DNA of 64,000 nt from a virus. The notes beneath the pieces are model-generated. The model saw only the letters and a list, made by a program, of their open reading frames with translations, was not told the origin of the DNA and did not search any database. A program made the translations under genes and the position numbers. Below, piece after piece: positions 2,575 to 57,860 of the stretch. The number at the start of each line of letters is the position of its first letter. Position 1 is the first letter of the stretch. The stretch covers positions 118,739-182,738 of IMG/VR virus record IMGVR_UViG_3300035070_003385; one strand, given 5' to 3'.

Positions 2575-3636
2575 GTGGTAGTAGATCTATTCTTAGTTTA
2601 TCAATTTATCCGTAGATTAGCTACGCCATTTGAAAAGTGGCCTGCTTACGAAGCAGGGGTTATAGATAAAAAAGGAAATATACTCAAAGGAAAAAACCAA
2701 AGAAATTTAAAATCTGAAAAAGATTCATTTGGTATTTTTGATTTGATGATATTAAAAATCAAAAAGCTTTTAGCTAAACTACCAGGCGGATCATCAAATT
2801 TTGCTTCCTATGCCGCAGCGCTGTTTCTCATAAAAGAATGGAAACATTTTACTAATGATAGCATGCTTAATGAATCTATTTCTGAAGAGAATATTGACCA
2901 GTCACTGGATTTGTTTTTTAGTAGATATAATCATTATAACACACTTTCAGAAAATGTCAATAGTTTTTTAGATGAAAAACTTAAAAAATCAGATGATATG
3001 GGTACATGGATTAAAGATTTTTATGACTCAGATGCTCCTCAATTCAAAGGTAAATCAAAAGCAAAACGCCGGCAAATGGCCGTTGCTGCAAAACTTGACG
3101 CTATGGATGAAGCACGAAAACTACAACCTCCTAAATGGAAAAAGGCTGGACCCAATGGAGAAAAAGAAATTACTTTTCCGACTGGCCGTCGCTTTAAGAT
3201 AGAAAAACAATATGATGAAAATATTCGTCATAAGGGTGAGTGGAAAGTAATGGAATGGGATCCTCGCTCTCGTGATTGGGAATGGCATGAAACATTTAGT
3301 CCACAATGGTATGCGAAAGAAAAAGTAATGGAACTAGGTAAATATGATTCCAAAGGTAAAAAAGTTACTGAGTCAGCAATTAATATGCGTACTTTAAAAC
3401 TTATCAATAAAATTAAAAAGTCCGGTGTTGTAAAATCCGGTTCTATGTCAAAAAATGTAAACACAAAACCGACGATGAAAGAAGAACCAACAAATAGCGT
3501 TGGATCTGGCGCTGTTGCTGGTTTAGGCGTTGGTCCACAGGGAGAGCCAGGATTGACTCCTGCTCAAATGAAAAAGTATAAAAAGAAAAACAAAGGTCCA
3601 AAAAGACTAAGGGATATTATAGGAGCGAATACATGA
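2575..3636 (+). CDS. Putative virion structural protein, 353 aa
   Basis: Starts at GTG 2575, one base after the previous stop. The N-terminal part (VYQFIRRLATPFEKWPAYEAG, IKKLLAKLPGGSSN) and the central block (DDMGTWIKDFYDSDAPQFKGKS then KAKRRQMAVAAKLDA) are conserved elements I recall from T4-like marine phage structural proteins. The C-terminus has NSVGSGAVAGLGVGPQGEPG and a Lys-rich end. Phrases such as MLNESISEE and KVTESA could be sites for the head protease. It overlaps the endolysin start by 4 bases. A head or neck component is likely; the exact role is unknown. Confidence 0.65.
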   Translation: MVVDLFLVYQFIRRLATPFEKWPAYEAGVIDKKGNILKGKNQRNLKSEKDSFGIFDLMILKIKKLLAKLPGGSSNFASYAAALFLIKEWKHFTNDSMLNESISEENIDQSLDLFFSRYNHYNTLSENVNSFLDEKLKKSDDMGTWIKDFYDSDAPQFKGKSKAKRRQMAVAAKLDAMDEARKLQPPKWKKAGPNGEKEITFPTGRRFKIEKQYDENIRHKGEWKVMEWDPRSRDWEWHETFSPQWYAKEKVMELGKYDSKGKKVTESAINMRTLKLINKIKKSGVVKSGSMSKNVNTKPTMKEEPTNSVGSGAVAGLGVGPQGEPGLTPAQMKKYKKKNKGPKRLRDIIGANT

Positions 3637-53740: not shown

Positions 53741-54730
53741 TTATACCTGTTGACCTGCTAGGCTATCTATCAGCGTAAGAAGATCACCAACGTCCGTTGC
53801 GTTTCCGTCGGATGCAAAAGAGAACTTATCGATCGTATCAACTCTGAATGGACTAGCACCTCCGGCTGTATATCCAGATTCTGTACTCGATTGCCCTCCA
53901 GGATTATTTCCTCTTGCTTGGGATAAATCGCCAATATCGGTTGCGTTTCCATCAGATGCAAAAGGAAACTTATCAATTTCGTTAGTGGAATTCACATTTA
54001 CTGGAGACGCCCCACCAGATGCATAACCAGAAGTATCACTAGATTGCCCAGCATGAAATCTTCTATTCGTTACCAAGTCCCCTACGTCTGTGGAGTTGGC
54101 GTCGGCAGCAAAAGGAAACTTGTCAATTATGTTCGAGAAACCTGGTGGTGATCCACCAGCGTTATATCCTGATACACTGCTTGACGAACCAGACGCACCA
54201 TACCGACCCTGCGTTAGATCACCAACATCTGTTGCATCACTGTCAGTGGCAAAAGGAAACTTATCAACTGTATTTCTTGTAGAAGGGGAAGGTGTAAGAC
54301 CGCCAGAAGTGTACCCAGACTCAGTACTCATTTGGCCTGAAACAATTCTTCTTTCTACAGTTAAGTCACCCACATCAGTTGCGTCAGCGTCTGCTGCAAA
54401 AGGAAACTTGTCTATCGTATTTACCTGTGGAGGAACAAACCCACCAGAAGTATACCCACTTACAGAACTGGATTGCCCTGCTCCGCGAGATCTGGCTTGC
54501 GTAAGATCACCAACATCGGTTGAATTTCCGTCAGATGAAAAAGGAAACTTTTGAATAACATTAGATATTGGATTACCGCCAGAAGTATAACCACTTACTG
54601 ACCCATACGCATTCGGTGGAGGAGGTGGTGTAATGTTTAAACTTTCGTTTACAACGAATTTAGTCTTATCTCCTGGTACAATATTACCAGATGAGTCTAC
54701 AACTTCTGTACCTTGAATTTTATATACCAT
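53741..54730 (-). CDS. Six-repeat SGYTSGG (Kelch-like) protein inserted in the neck operon
   Basis: A 329-residue protein. After an N-terminal part (KIQGTEVVDSSGNIVPGDKTKFVVNE then a Pro run) it has six repeats of about 45-50 residues: SGYTSGG, then ID/KFPFA(T/A)D, then TDVGDLT, then R and AGQSS. The alternation of GG, hydrophobic beta and R resembles Kelch blades, so a six-bladed propeller is plausible. It ends AGQQV, as does its paralogue at 62906. By position it may be a virion decoration or adhesin. Confidence 0.75.
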   Translation of the reverse strand: MVYKIQGTEVVDSSGNIVPGDKTKFVVNESLNITPPPPPNAYGSVSGYTSGGNPISNVIQKFPFSSDGNSTDVGDLTQARSRGAGQSSSVSGYTSGGFVPPQVNTIDKFPFAADADATDVGDLTVERRIVSGQMSTESGYTSGGLTPSPSTRNTVDKFPFATDSDATDVGDLTQGRYGASGSSSSVSGYNAGGSPPGFSNIIDKFPFAADANSTDVGDLVTNRRFHAGQSSDTSGYASGGASPVNVNSTNEIDKFPFASDGNATDIGDLSQARGNNPGGQSSTESGYTAGGASPFRVDTIDKFSFASDGNATDVGDLLTLIDSLAGQQV

Positions 54731-55418: not shown

Positions 55419-56162
55419 TTAACCCACGAAATTATAGGTAAGAGGTTGCAGTGAGCTAATGGCATTTTCTTCCATTTCTTTTCGATCAGCCTTGGCTTCA
55501 CTTAATATTTGTTCTCCATTAAACTGAACACCACCTACGAGTTGCATATTTGTAAATTTAGTTAAGTTTAATCCCCACTGTTCTCTTATAAGAGCTGAGG
55601 TGTAATTTTGGAGCCAGCGATCCTGCCAAACATCAGAATATGTTTCTCCATCTATGATATCATATCCTTCAATGATAATATGTGATCCTGCGACCATTAT
55701 ATCTTTTTTACCATCAATATAAAGGCGATTTACATGGCGGTTATATCGTACTAAAGGTTTTCCTACTAAAATTTCCTGTAGGAATTGCAGATGAGACATT
55801 GACATATAATAGTTTTGTATACTATATCCTGTAATATCACTGAGGTTATTCAAAACGAATTGGTATTGTACATTAAAAATACCAGTACCCGTCGACACAG
55901 ATGAGCTTAAGTCAAATATTCGAGTAACACCTAGCATATTTGCTGGTATTGTAACATAACCTTGATCTATTTCATTTTGAGTAAGTTCGTGCTTAAGATA
56001 AACCATTTGACTTCCGTCATAATGATAATCTCTCCAAAAAGATATAGCTTCGTCAATACGGTCTTCAGTTTGTTCTTCGGAAACATTTATCTGAATAACT
56101 GGAGAACCTATTTTACGAAGAACGTAATCTTTAAACTCTTCGCGTGTTGTTGGTAATGCCAT
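55419..56162 (-). CDS. 13: Neck protein, gp13
   Basis: A 247-residue protein. PTTREEFKDYVLRKIGSPVIQINVSEEQTEDRIDEAISFWRDYHYDG and the later LYIDGKKDIMVAGSHIIIEGY and AKADRKEMEENAI are gp13 signatures. It forms the neck on the portal. First gene of this late neck operon with a late promoter at 56186. Confidence 0.95.
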   Translation of the reverse strand: MALPTTREEFKDYVLRKIGSPVIQINVSEEQTEDRIDEAISFWRDYHYDGSQMVYLKHELTQNEIDQGYVTIPANMLGVTRIFDLSSSVSTGTGIFNVQYQFVLNNLSDITGYSIQNYYMSMSHLQFLQEILVGKPLVRYNRHVNRLYIDGKKDIMVAGSHIIIEGYDIIDGETYSDVWQDRWLQNYTSALIREQWGLNLTKFTNMQLVGGVQFNGEQILSEAKADRKEMEENAISSLQPLTYNFVG

Positions 56163-56185: not shown

Positions 56186-56193
56186 TATTTATA
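56186..56193 (-). promoter_or_regulatory. Late promoter of gp13
   Basis: Perfect TATAAATA on the minus strand, 24 bases before the gp13 start, close to but outside the plus-strand promoter duplication. Confidence 0.8.
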
Positions 56194-56219
56194 AAAAAGA
56201 AGCTATCGTCATTTTTCTA

Positions 56220-56247
56220 TTGACATTCCATAAATATTGGATATAAT
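56220..56247 (+). promoter_or_regulatory. Plus-strand sigma70-type promoter, copy 1
   Basis: TTGACA (56220-56225), 16-base spacer, TATAAT (56242-56247), followed by a palindrome at the start site. The ATG at 56270 opens a 15-codon frame that stops within copy 2. Confidence 0.82.
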
Positions 56248-56313
56248 AGAATTAATAATTCTGGGAGCTATGGTATTAGATTACAATAATTTAAAATATG
56301 TACCATTTTTCTA

Positions 56314-56341
56314 TTGACATTCCATAAATATTGGATATAAT
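56314..56341 (+). promoter_or_regulatory. Plus-strand sigma70-type promoter, copy 2
   Basis: TTGACA (56314-56319), TATAAT (56336-56341), identical to copy 1. It points into the minus-strand modification operon, so its transcript would be antisense to it. Confidence 0.82.
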
Positions 56342-56370
56342 AGAATTAATAATTCTGGGAGCTATGGTAT

Positions 56371-57129
56371 CTAAACGCGCTCGATATCCTCTTCAATACA
56401 ATTTGTTCCATATTGGATTTCTACGATCCGTACTTCGTCCTTTGTATTATTTATCAATTGATGCCAAGTACCTACAGGAATATCAATTTCGTCGTGTTTT
56501 TCAAGCACAGAAGTTTGAATATTATCTAAATCATTTCCATGGTTTACTGTTGCAACACCATAGCTTACAATCCAATATTCATTGCGTGACTCGTGTCTTT
56601 GAAGACTTAAAGATTTACCTGGAGAAACAACAAGTTCTTTTGCTTTCGTGGAAGGACCGTCAGAATGAAGTACACGATAGTATCCCCATTTTCTTTCTGT
56701 TTTTGGAGTTTTCCATTCAGTGAGTATTTTACTGCTGGAGTTCATCTTGTGAACTCCGCCTACTCCAAATACAAAAGATAGTCGTGGATCATCAATTTTC
56801 ATTTCTGGAATATTTTCATCCGTCCTATCACCACCATTTGCAAAAATAATTTCTGAGTCCGGATACATAACCAAACAATTATGAATTGCTTGATTTGCAC
56901 CACCATCACTATCGTCAAATACCATAGCTACATCAACAACTGAAAGATTTTTTACAATTTCAACTCTTTCGTTTATATCCATGAATGGCTGACCTTTTTT
57001 ACGAGTCAACCATTCGTTACTGTTTACACCTACTACTAGGATATCACCTAGCTTTTTTGCTTCGTTAAAATATGCGATATGACCGCTGTGTAGCGGATCA
57101 AACCCTCCAGAAACTAAAACAACCTTCAT
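56371..57129 (-). CDS. Cytidylyltransferase-cupin fusion (sugar nucleotide enzyme)
   Basis: A 252-residue two-domain protein. N-terminal HxGH transferase (SGGFDPLHSGH with H14, H17), like glycerol-3-phosphate or heptose nucleotidyltransferases, residues 1-135. Then a cupin: KWGYYRVLH, AKELVVSPGKSLSLQRHESRNEYWIV, and IPVGTWHQLINNT, like the type II mannose-6-phosphate isomerase domain of guanylyltransferases. ATG 57129 with GGAG upstream is chosen; a TTG is at 57135. It may make an activated sugar for the transferases beside it. Confidence 0.85.
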   Translation of the reverse strand: MKVVLVSGGFDPLHSGHIAYFNEAKKLGDILVVGVNSNEWLTRKKGQPFMDINERVEIVKNLSVVDVAMVFDDSDGGANQAIHNCLVMYPDSEIIFANGGDRTDENIPEMKIDDPRLSFVFGVGGVHKMNSSSKILTEWKTPKTERKWGYYRVLHSDGPSTKAKELVVSPGKSLSLQRHESRNEYWIVSYGVATVNHGNDLDNIQTSVLEKHDEIDIPVGTWHQLINNTKDEVRIVEIQYGTNCIEEDIERV

Positions 57130-57131
57130 TA

Positions 57132-57860
57132 TCAATCTCCTAAATGCATTCTTGATTCTTCTCCGTCAAAGAAGAACATTTGCCATAATCTGCAATCATG
57201 TATATCGCTGCCAAAGTATTCAGACGCAGCATGAATTGATCCCCCTTCAAATATAACCAAACGATTAAAAATATTACCGAAAGAATCTACTGTATCGAAC
57301 GGAGTTTTATCTAAAAATGTTTTTCCAGGAAATATTTTATGTCCAGTTCCATCTTCCCAATTAATTTGAGAGTTATGGTGAATTTTTGTTTCTCGGTGCA
57401 TGTATGTACTTGTACCAGTTTGAGGTGGAGCATTCGGTGTTAGATATATCATGGCTGCCCATTTTTGTTGGTCACAATGATACACTAGCTTTTCACCGGC
57501 ATAATTGTGCTGAAACCTACCATTCATACCATAGGTTTCCCACTCACTTATTCTTTCGCCGATAATACTTTCAAAAGTTTCCTTTAAGCCAGGAAATAGA
57601 TGTTGCGTTCTTGTTCTTCTTCCAATATAACCAGGATCATCAAAGTATTCCTGTTGCAAAGCATAGTCGCGCATCGCATAAGGATCTGCGTAAAAGTTAT
57701 CAACTATAATTGCTCTTTTATTTTCTTGAAGATTTGGGTTTACTTTATAGACAGGATCGGCTTCTCCCTCGTAAACAATTTCATTTTCTTGCGGCTGAAT
57801 AACTTCCTCAACCACATTTTCTTGAAAATGTTCTTCTTCTTGTATAATCCAATTTTTCAT
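57132..57860 (-). CDS. 2OG-Fe(II) oxygenase-like protein (DUF6445-like)
   Basis: A 242-residue protein whose C-terminal half has the double-stranded beta-helix ligand order: H128-x-D130 in VYHCDQ, distal H210 in GGSIHAAS, and R224 for the 2-oxoglutarate. IIVDNFYADPYAMRDYAL and AAMIYLTPNAPP are typical of the DUF6445 group, as I recall it. It may hydroxylate a sugar or protein side chain in the late modification set. Substrate unknown. Confidence 0.8.
   Translation of the reverse strand: MKNWIIQEEEHFQENVVEEVIQPQENEIVYEGEADPVYKVNPNLQENKRAIIVDNFYADPYAMRDYALQQEYFDDPGYIGRRTRTQHLFPGLKETFESIIGERISEWETYGMNGRFQHNYAGEKLVYHCDQQKWAAMIYLTPNAPPQTGTSTYMHRETKIHHNSQINWEDGTGHKIFPGKTFLDKTPFDTVDSFGNIFNRLVIFEGGSIHAASEYFGSDIHDCRLWQMFFFDGEESRMHLGD

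Follow-up and report, generated by a model that had tools for sequence, protein, structure and literature searches.

The stem-loops of promoter-early stem-loop (PeSL) cassettes are terminators. The cassettes themselves, known from the T4-type phages RB49 and phi1 (Arbiol 2010; Comeau 2014; via PMC4503421), are small, repeated and intergenic, and they combine a strong sigma-70-like promoter with a stem-loop, all of which likens them to the element described here. Antisense transcription in T4 phages is likewise on record, at gene 32 of T4, a different locus (Belin 1987, listed as a reference in PMC2988021), and in a marine T4-like phage in the form of CfrI, an antisense RNA of cyanophage S-PM2 at psbA/homing endonuclease (Millard 2010, via PMC2984593); for CfrI such transcription is known, whereas for the present element it is predicted, and the passage on CfrI in that source gives it no link to gp55 and mentions no start-site dyad. 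The RfaH/ops system (PMC5995543) also offers a precedent for a functional hairpin formed by non-template DNA within a transcription complex, and there the hairpin is likewise small and selected as a structure; ops, however, acts in elongation and recruits a factor, whereas the hairpin considered here is proposed to act at initiation, with no factor known. From PeSL cassettes the present element differs in that its dyad, of 4-6 bp, lies on the start site, its promoter is antisense and its place is conserved. Position, dyad and conservation together are matched by none of PeSL, CfrI and the gene 32 antisense transcription, and we know of no dyad element associated with the latter. Searches of the open-access literature (antisense at uvsW/gp55, cyanophage antisense, divergent promoters) found no prior description, and this control element beside the late sigma-factor gene is apparently undescribed.

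The window analysed here is the final 64 kb of a virus record that is 182,738 bp long. In it, two plus-strand units of 67 bp (56210-56276 and 56304-56370), identical at 67/67 positions and 94 nt apart from start to start, form an exact direct repeat that fills the gap between two minus-strand genes. Downstream lies the gene of a neck protein (head-tail adaptor Ad2, gp13-like; 55419-56162; phrog_211, E 1.1e-36), whose late promoter TATAAATA (56186-56193, minus strand) stands back-to-back with both antisense promoters; on the other side, the last base of copy 2 adjoins the stop codon of a fused nucleotidyltransferase and cupin gene (56371-57135; phrog_7878, phrog_7851), which is read in antisense. 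Each unit consists of CATTTTTCTA, a -35 box, a spacer, a -10 box, the dyad and GGGAGCTATGGTAT. Both promoters (56220-56247 and 56314-56341) are TTGACA-16-TATAAT, a 12/12 match to the sigma-70 consensus (TTGACA and TATAAT, 16-18 nt apart), and the 15-nt dyad AGAATT-AAT-AATTCT (56248-56262, repeated identically at 56342-56356) directly abuts the -10 box and surrounds the predicted start, which as the 7th nucleotide falls near its centre. The first-pass annotation had thus described the duplication, the promoters, the palindrome at the start site and the antisense orientation into minus-strand genes correctly. Its ribosome site with ATG is weak (GGGAG stands 2 nt from the ATG, and the third copy and relatives have GTG), and the 15-residue peptide that it assigned to the first copy is not conserved in relatives.

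Several further features of this region and genome may be listed for orientation. An Rfam scan of the window and of contig L006 returned nothing at the gathering threshold, and a tRNA/tmRNA search found none at the units; elsewhere in the same phage genome there are six tRNAs (L007:3815-4766) and, outside the window, a tmRNA gene (L007:9731-10119, plus strand) with the tag ANANRAPKMALAA. Reading the dyad as a minus-strand terminator was rejected, as it has no U tract and the wobbles discussed below are on the opposite one. A terminator-like CTAGG-ATATCA-CCTAG-CTTTTTT lies about 670 nt beyond copy 2 on the antisense (plus) strand, at 57036-57051; a downstream terminator is present in the closest strains only and is not conserved among relatives. 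The place of the fused nucleotidyltransferase/cupin ORF is held in relatives by genes with a cupin-like end or by quite different genes. Between the neck and tail genes lies a repetitive ORF of unknown function (53741-54730, minus strand; YTSGG/DVGDL repeats; phrog_19111). Sense early promoters across the record (e.g. window 36616, 38075 and 14245) carry an extended motif TTGACATT...TAGAATCAGTTATATT, with a GGAATC/GGAATA block downstream, ahead of the start codon.

The same phage has a third unit, also antisense and 57/67 identical, at record positions 70774-70840 in the gap between uvsW and the gene of gp55, the T4-like late sigma factor (54% identity with gp55 of Syn1). By themselves, 6-3-6 dyads are no rarity, with 28 in the 64 kb, and a 12/12 promoter joined to a 6-bp dyad occurs at three sites only in the 182,738-bp record, namely the two units and record position 70784. 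Of two independent contigs, L014 shows both of these copies and L012 a one-copy allele in which the centre base is flipped, so the duplication did not arise as an artefact of assembly. In three related lineages this gap contains two copies that have diverged from each other (identities of 49/67, 53/67 and 60/67), at spacings of 94, 99 and 104. Copy number among relatives, a check proposed with the first-pass annotation, is therefore one, two or two diverged, and the tandem state, judging from these contigs, is not peculiar to this strain. The recent event suggested in that annotation holds in so far as the exact identity points to recent re-duplication or homogenisation; it does not hold as an isolated oddity, given an ancient element and three lineages with diverged copies. 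Contig L011 has, in its second copy at the neck, a spacer (TTTCTTCAACAATGAG) that is one base off that of its own uvsW copy (TTTCTTGAACAATGAG), which is evidence of copying between the two loci. We infer that the unit at the gp13 junction was transposed there, its source being the copy at the gp55 junction or one related to it, and that it became tandem and was homogenised. The cultured phage closest in its neck protein, Stenotrophomonas phage DLP6, has no 12/12 promoter.

Conservation is most extensive at the uvsW-gp55 junction. A search with UvsW gave 78 usable relatives (74-100% identity), and 72 of these loci keep the antisense 12/12 promoter, 54-132 nt past the end of uvsW; these promoters comprise 27 distinct sequences, all exactly 12/12 despite a freely varying spacer. 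The promoter is missing at the other 6/78 uvsW loci, as it is at many neck loci, and hence the element is not essential everywhere. A gp55 search added 80 further IMG/VR loci, at least 76 of which have an antisense promoter of 10-12/12. So do all 17 cultured Kyanoviridae and Pelagibacter phages examined at this junction (Syn1, S-RIM44, S-CAM3, S-SSM4, ACG-2014d, S-CAM1, ACG-2014f, S-CAM7, S-RIM2, ACG-2014a, S-RIM12, S-PRM1, P-SSM4, S-PM2, S-RSM4 and the Pelagibacter phages HTVC008M and Mosig). The antisense promoter stands back-to-back with gp55's own sigma-70 promoter, and in S-RIM2, S-RIM12 and P-SSM4 it overlaps or interlocks with it. The element is absent at gp55 in Caulobacter Cr30, Vibrio F86 and Escherichia JS98. 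On this comparative evidence the element is ancient, with its main home at the uvsW-gp55 junction of many marine T4-like phages.

The dyad arms vary from sequence to sequence and yet stay complementary, starting 0-1 nt past the -10 box. Arm pairs include AGAAT/ATTCT, CAGAT/ATCTG, TGGAT/ATCCA, AGCAT/ATGCT, AGAC/GTCT, AGGC/GCCT, AGGCT/AGCCT, CTGAT/ATCAG, AAGGT/ACCTT, AACCT/AGGTT, AACTT/AAGTT, AACAG/CTGTT and ATGAG/CTCAT, together with AGGCA/TGCCT (HTVC008M) and AACGG/CCGTT (Mosig) in Pelagibacter phages; at least 30 distinct pairs exist overall, 15 and 21 having been counted in two sets, with a few length variants among them. Dyad centres lie 5.5-9 nt past the -10 box, i.e. at the predicted start, and the loops are 2-7 nt. 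With right parts swapped among sequences as a control (500 times), a dyad score of at least 4 was reached by 21/27 distinct uvsW sequences against 3.8 (maximum 11) in the controls, and by 60/82 distinct sequences of the second set against 36.9 (maximum 47); 15/82 sense promoters of the same loci passed this threshold. About a quarter of the distinct sequences have no good dyad, and among the cultured phages it is clear, by reading, in 14/17 and weak in ACG-2014d, ACG-2014a and S-PRM1. Where pairs in the cyanophage-type set depart from Watson-Crick, they read G.T on the antisense strand (39 sequences) and never A.C. This asymmetry favours folding of the plus strand, the antisense and non-template one, rather than an mRNA hairpin on the minus strand, but is supportive rather than decisive, since many of the 39 cases share one inherited wobble; in the other set the count is 1 vs 1. 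Single strands of the dyad have predicted folds of -1.3 to -3.5 kcal/mol. A pure-structure model would not require the primary sequence to be conserved, yet in cyanophages AACTCTGTNAGGGTTCAAG is.

Among the 12/12 promoters collected, the dyad accompanies 42/58 antisense and 6/76 sense promoters (Fisher p = 3e-15), although the loci came from searches with uvsW, neck and gp55, so that the sample behind the statistic is not unbiased; two of the six dyad-bearing 'sense' promoters are upstream tandem copies of the element itself. The general layout is a near-perfect promoter just past a gene's stop codon, directed back into that gene, with the following gene's promoter in back-to-back position; the latter is a sigma-70 promoter for gp55 and a late TATAAATA promoter for gp13 and other late genes. 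Specifically, L188, L187 and L068 share the order gene A stop, antisense promoter with dyad, late promoter, gene B, and in L196 the element is flanked by two large minus-strand ORFs, with no late promoter present. One further 12/12 promoter (window 2933-2960, minus strand) is antisense inside a coding ORF (2575-3636); the matching site is kept at 12/12 in contigs G001, G002, G003 and G005, with an AGCA/TGCT dyad in two (L193, L203). Promoter, dyad, covariation, conservation and boundary position are thus legible in the sequences, from which we further infer that the element is transcribed and functional.

The explanation that we favour, tentatively, is that the unit is a copy of a conserved divergent or antisense sigma-70 promoter element whose structure-selected hairpin would slow escape, and which would thereby insulate or time the next promoter. 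Early in infection, unmodified host RNA polymerase would bind the antisense promoter very tightly. The initial bubble would open to about +8, and the non-template strand, which is probably the folding strand, would fold into a hairpin of 4-6 bp. Indeed, the left arm lies at -6 to -2 and would be untranscribed with a canonical start, so that the hairpin would form in non-template DNA. It would hold the bubble open and slow the escape of the polymerase. A slow, outward-facing polymerase, together with released antisense transcripts, could then stop read-through from the upstream gene, and an occupied or slowly firing antisense promoter might compete with or delay the promoter that faces it (gp55 timing; the gp13 late operon).

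The first-pass annotation saw in the same dyad an operator. In the classical form of such a site, a phage or host dimeric protein would bind there and switch the antisense early promoter off. The dyad is there and covers the predicted start site, its arms are the same in the three copies of this phage, and some arm sequence is conserved in cyanophages. Nevertheless the arms differ between close relatives and even between loci of one genome (in G002 AGCAT at uvsW vs AGGTA at L196; in G003 TAGAT at the neck vs AGCA at L193; likewise in G005) while remaining complementary, which points to selection for structure and not for one binding-site sequence. The half-site spacing also varies with the loop, G.T mismatches are tolerated on one strand, and an operator is on balance doubtful and unlikely. 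If instead the RNA mattered, the transcript would act as a cis-antisense RNA that pairs with the mRNA of the upstream gene (uvsW, the sugar gene) at its 3' end and lowers that gene's expression, the dyad being secondary. The promoter is antisense to the gene, the element is always at a gene's 3' end and points inward, and CfrI, as described in the passage of PMC2984593 on S-PM2, is an example of such RNAs. We consider this improbable to much the same degree, as there is no conserved terminator and the element persists next to different upstream genes (uvsW, gene 139, cupin, epimerase). A synonymous-constraint test on uvsW moreover found no excess conservation at the 3' end that the antisense promoter overlaps, so the site or the act of transcription, rather than the RNA sequence, seems to matter; this is a weak point against the antisense RNA, since a perfect complement needs no such conservation.

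The tandem copies, the one- and two-copy alleles and the neck-gp55 exchange in L011 would also be expected of a PeSL-like cassette, a promoter and stem-loop spread and duplicated through repeat recombination, and the combination is indeed repeated in this genome, in three copies. However, the AT-rich 6-bp dyad is not an intrinsic terminator, with no T run after it on either strand, it is located at the start site instead of next to the promoter, and the position at gp55 is constant, not shuffled, among marine T4-like phages, all of which makes such a cassette very unlikely. Least probable, and by our judgement barely credible, is a transcription-primed replication origin with an R-loop primer made from the antisense promoter, for which the strength of the promoter and the neighbourhood of uvsW, an R-loop helicase gene, could be cited, as could the use of phage promoters by T4 origins. 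Against it, the element is also found at the neck, at other late genes and inside coding sequence.

Under the favoured reading of a promoter element with a structure-selected hairpin, it is conceivable, if rather doubtful, that marine T4-like phages have a new class of promoter, in which a consensus sigma-70 promoter, a non-template hairpin and a poised, slowly escaping polymerase would make up a directional boundary and timer for the gene of the late sigma factor and for certain late operons. The element is present in cultured, sequenced phages (S-PM2, P-SSM4 and HTVC008M) and is hence testable. It adjoins the gp55 promoter and bears on the timing of gp55 and late expression in marine T4-like phages, which have neither MotA nor AsiA (PMC2984593); should the dyad act as a hairpin of the non-template strand, promoter escape would be set by DNA structure in a new way.
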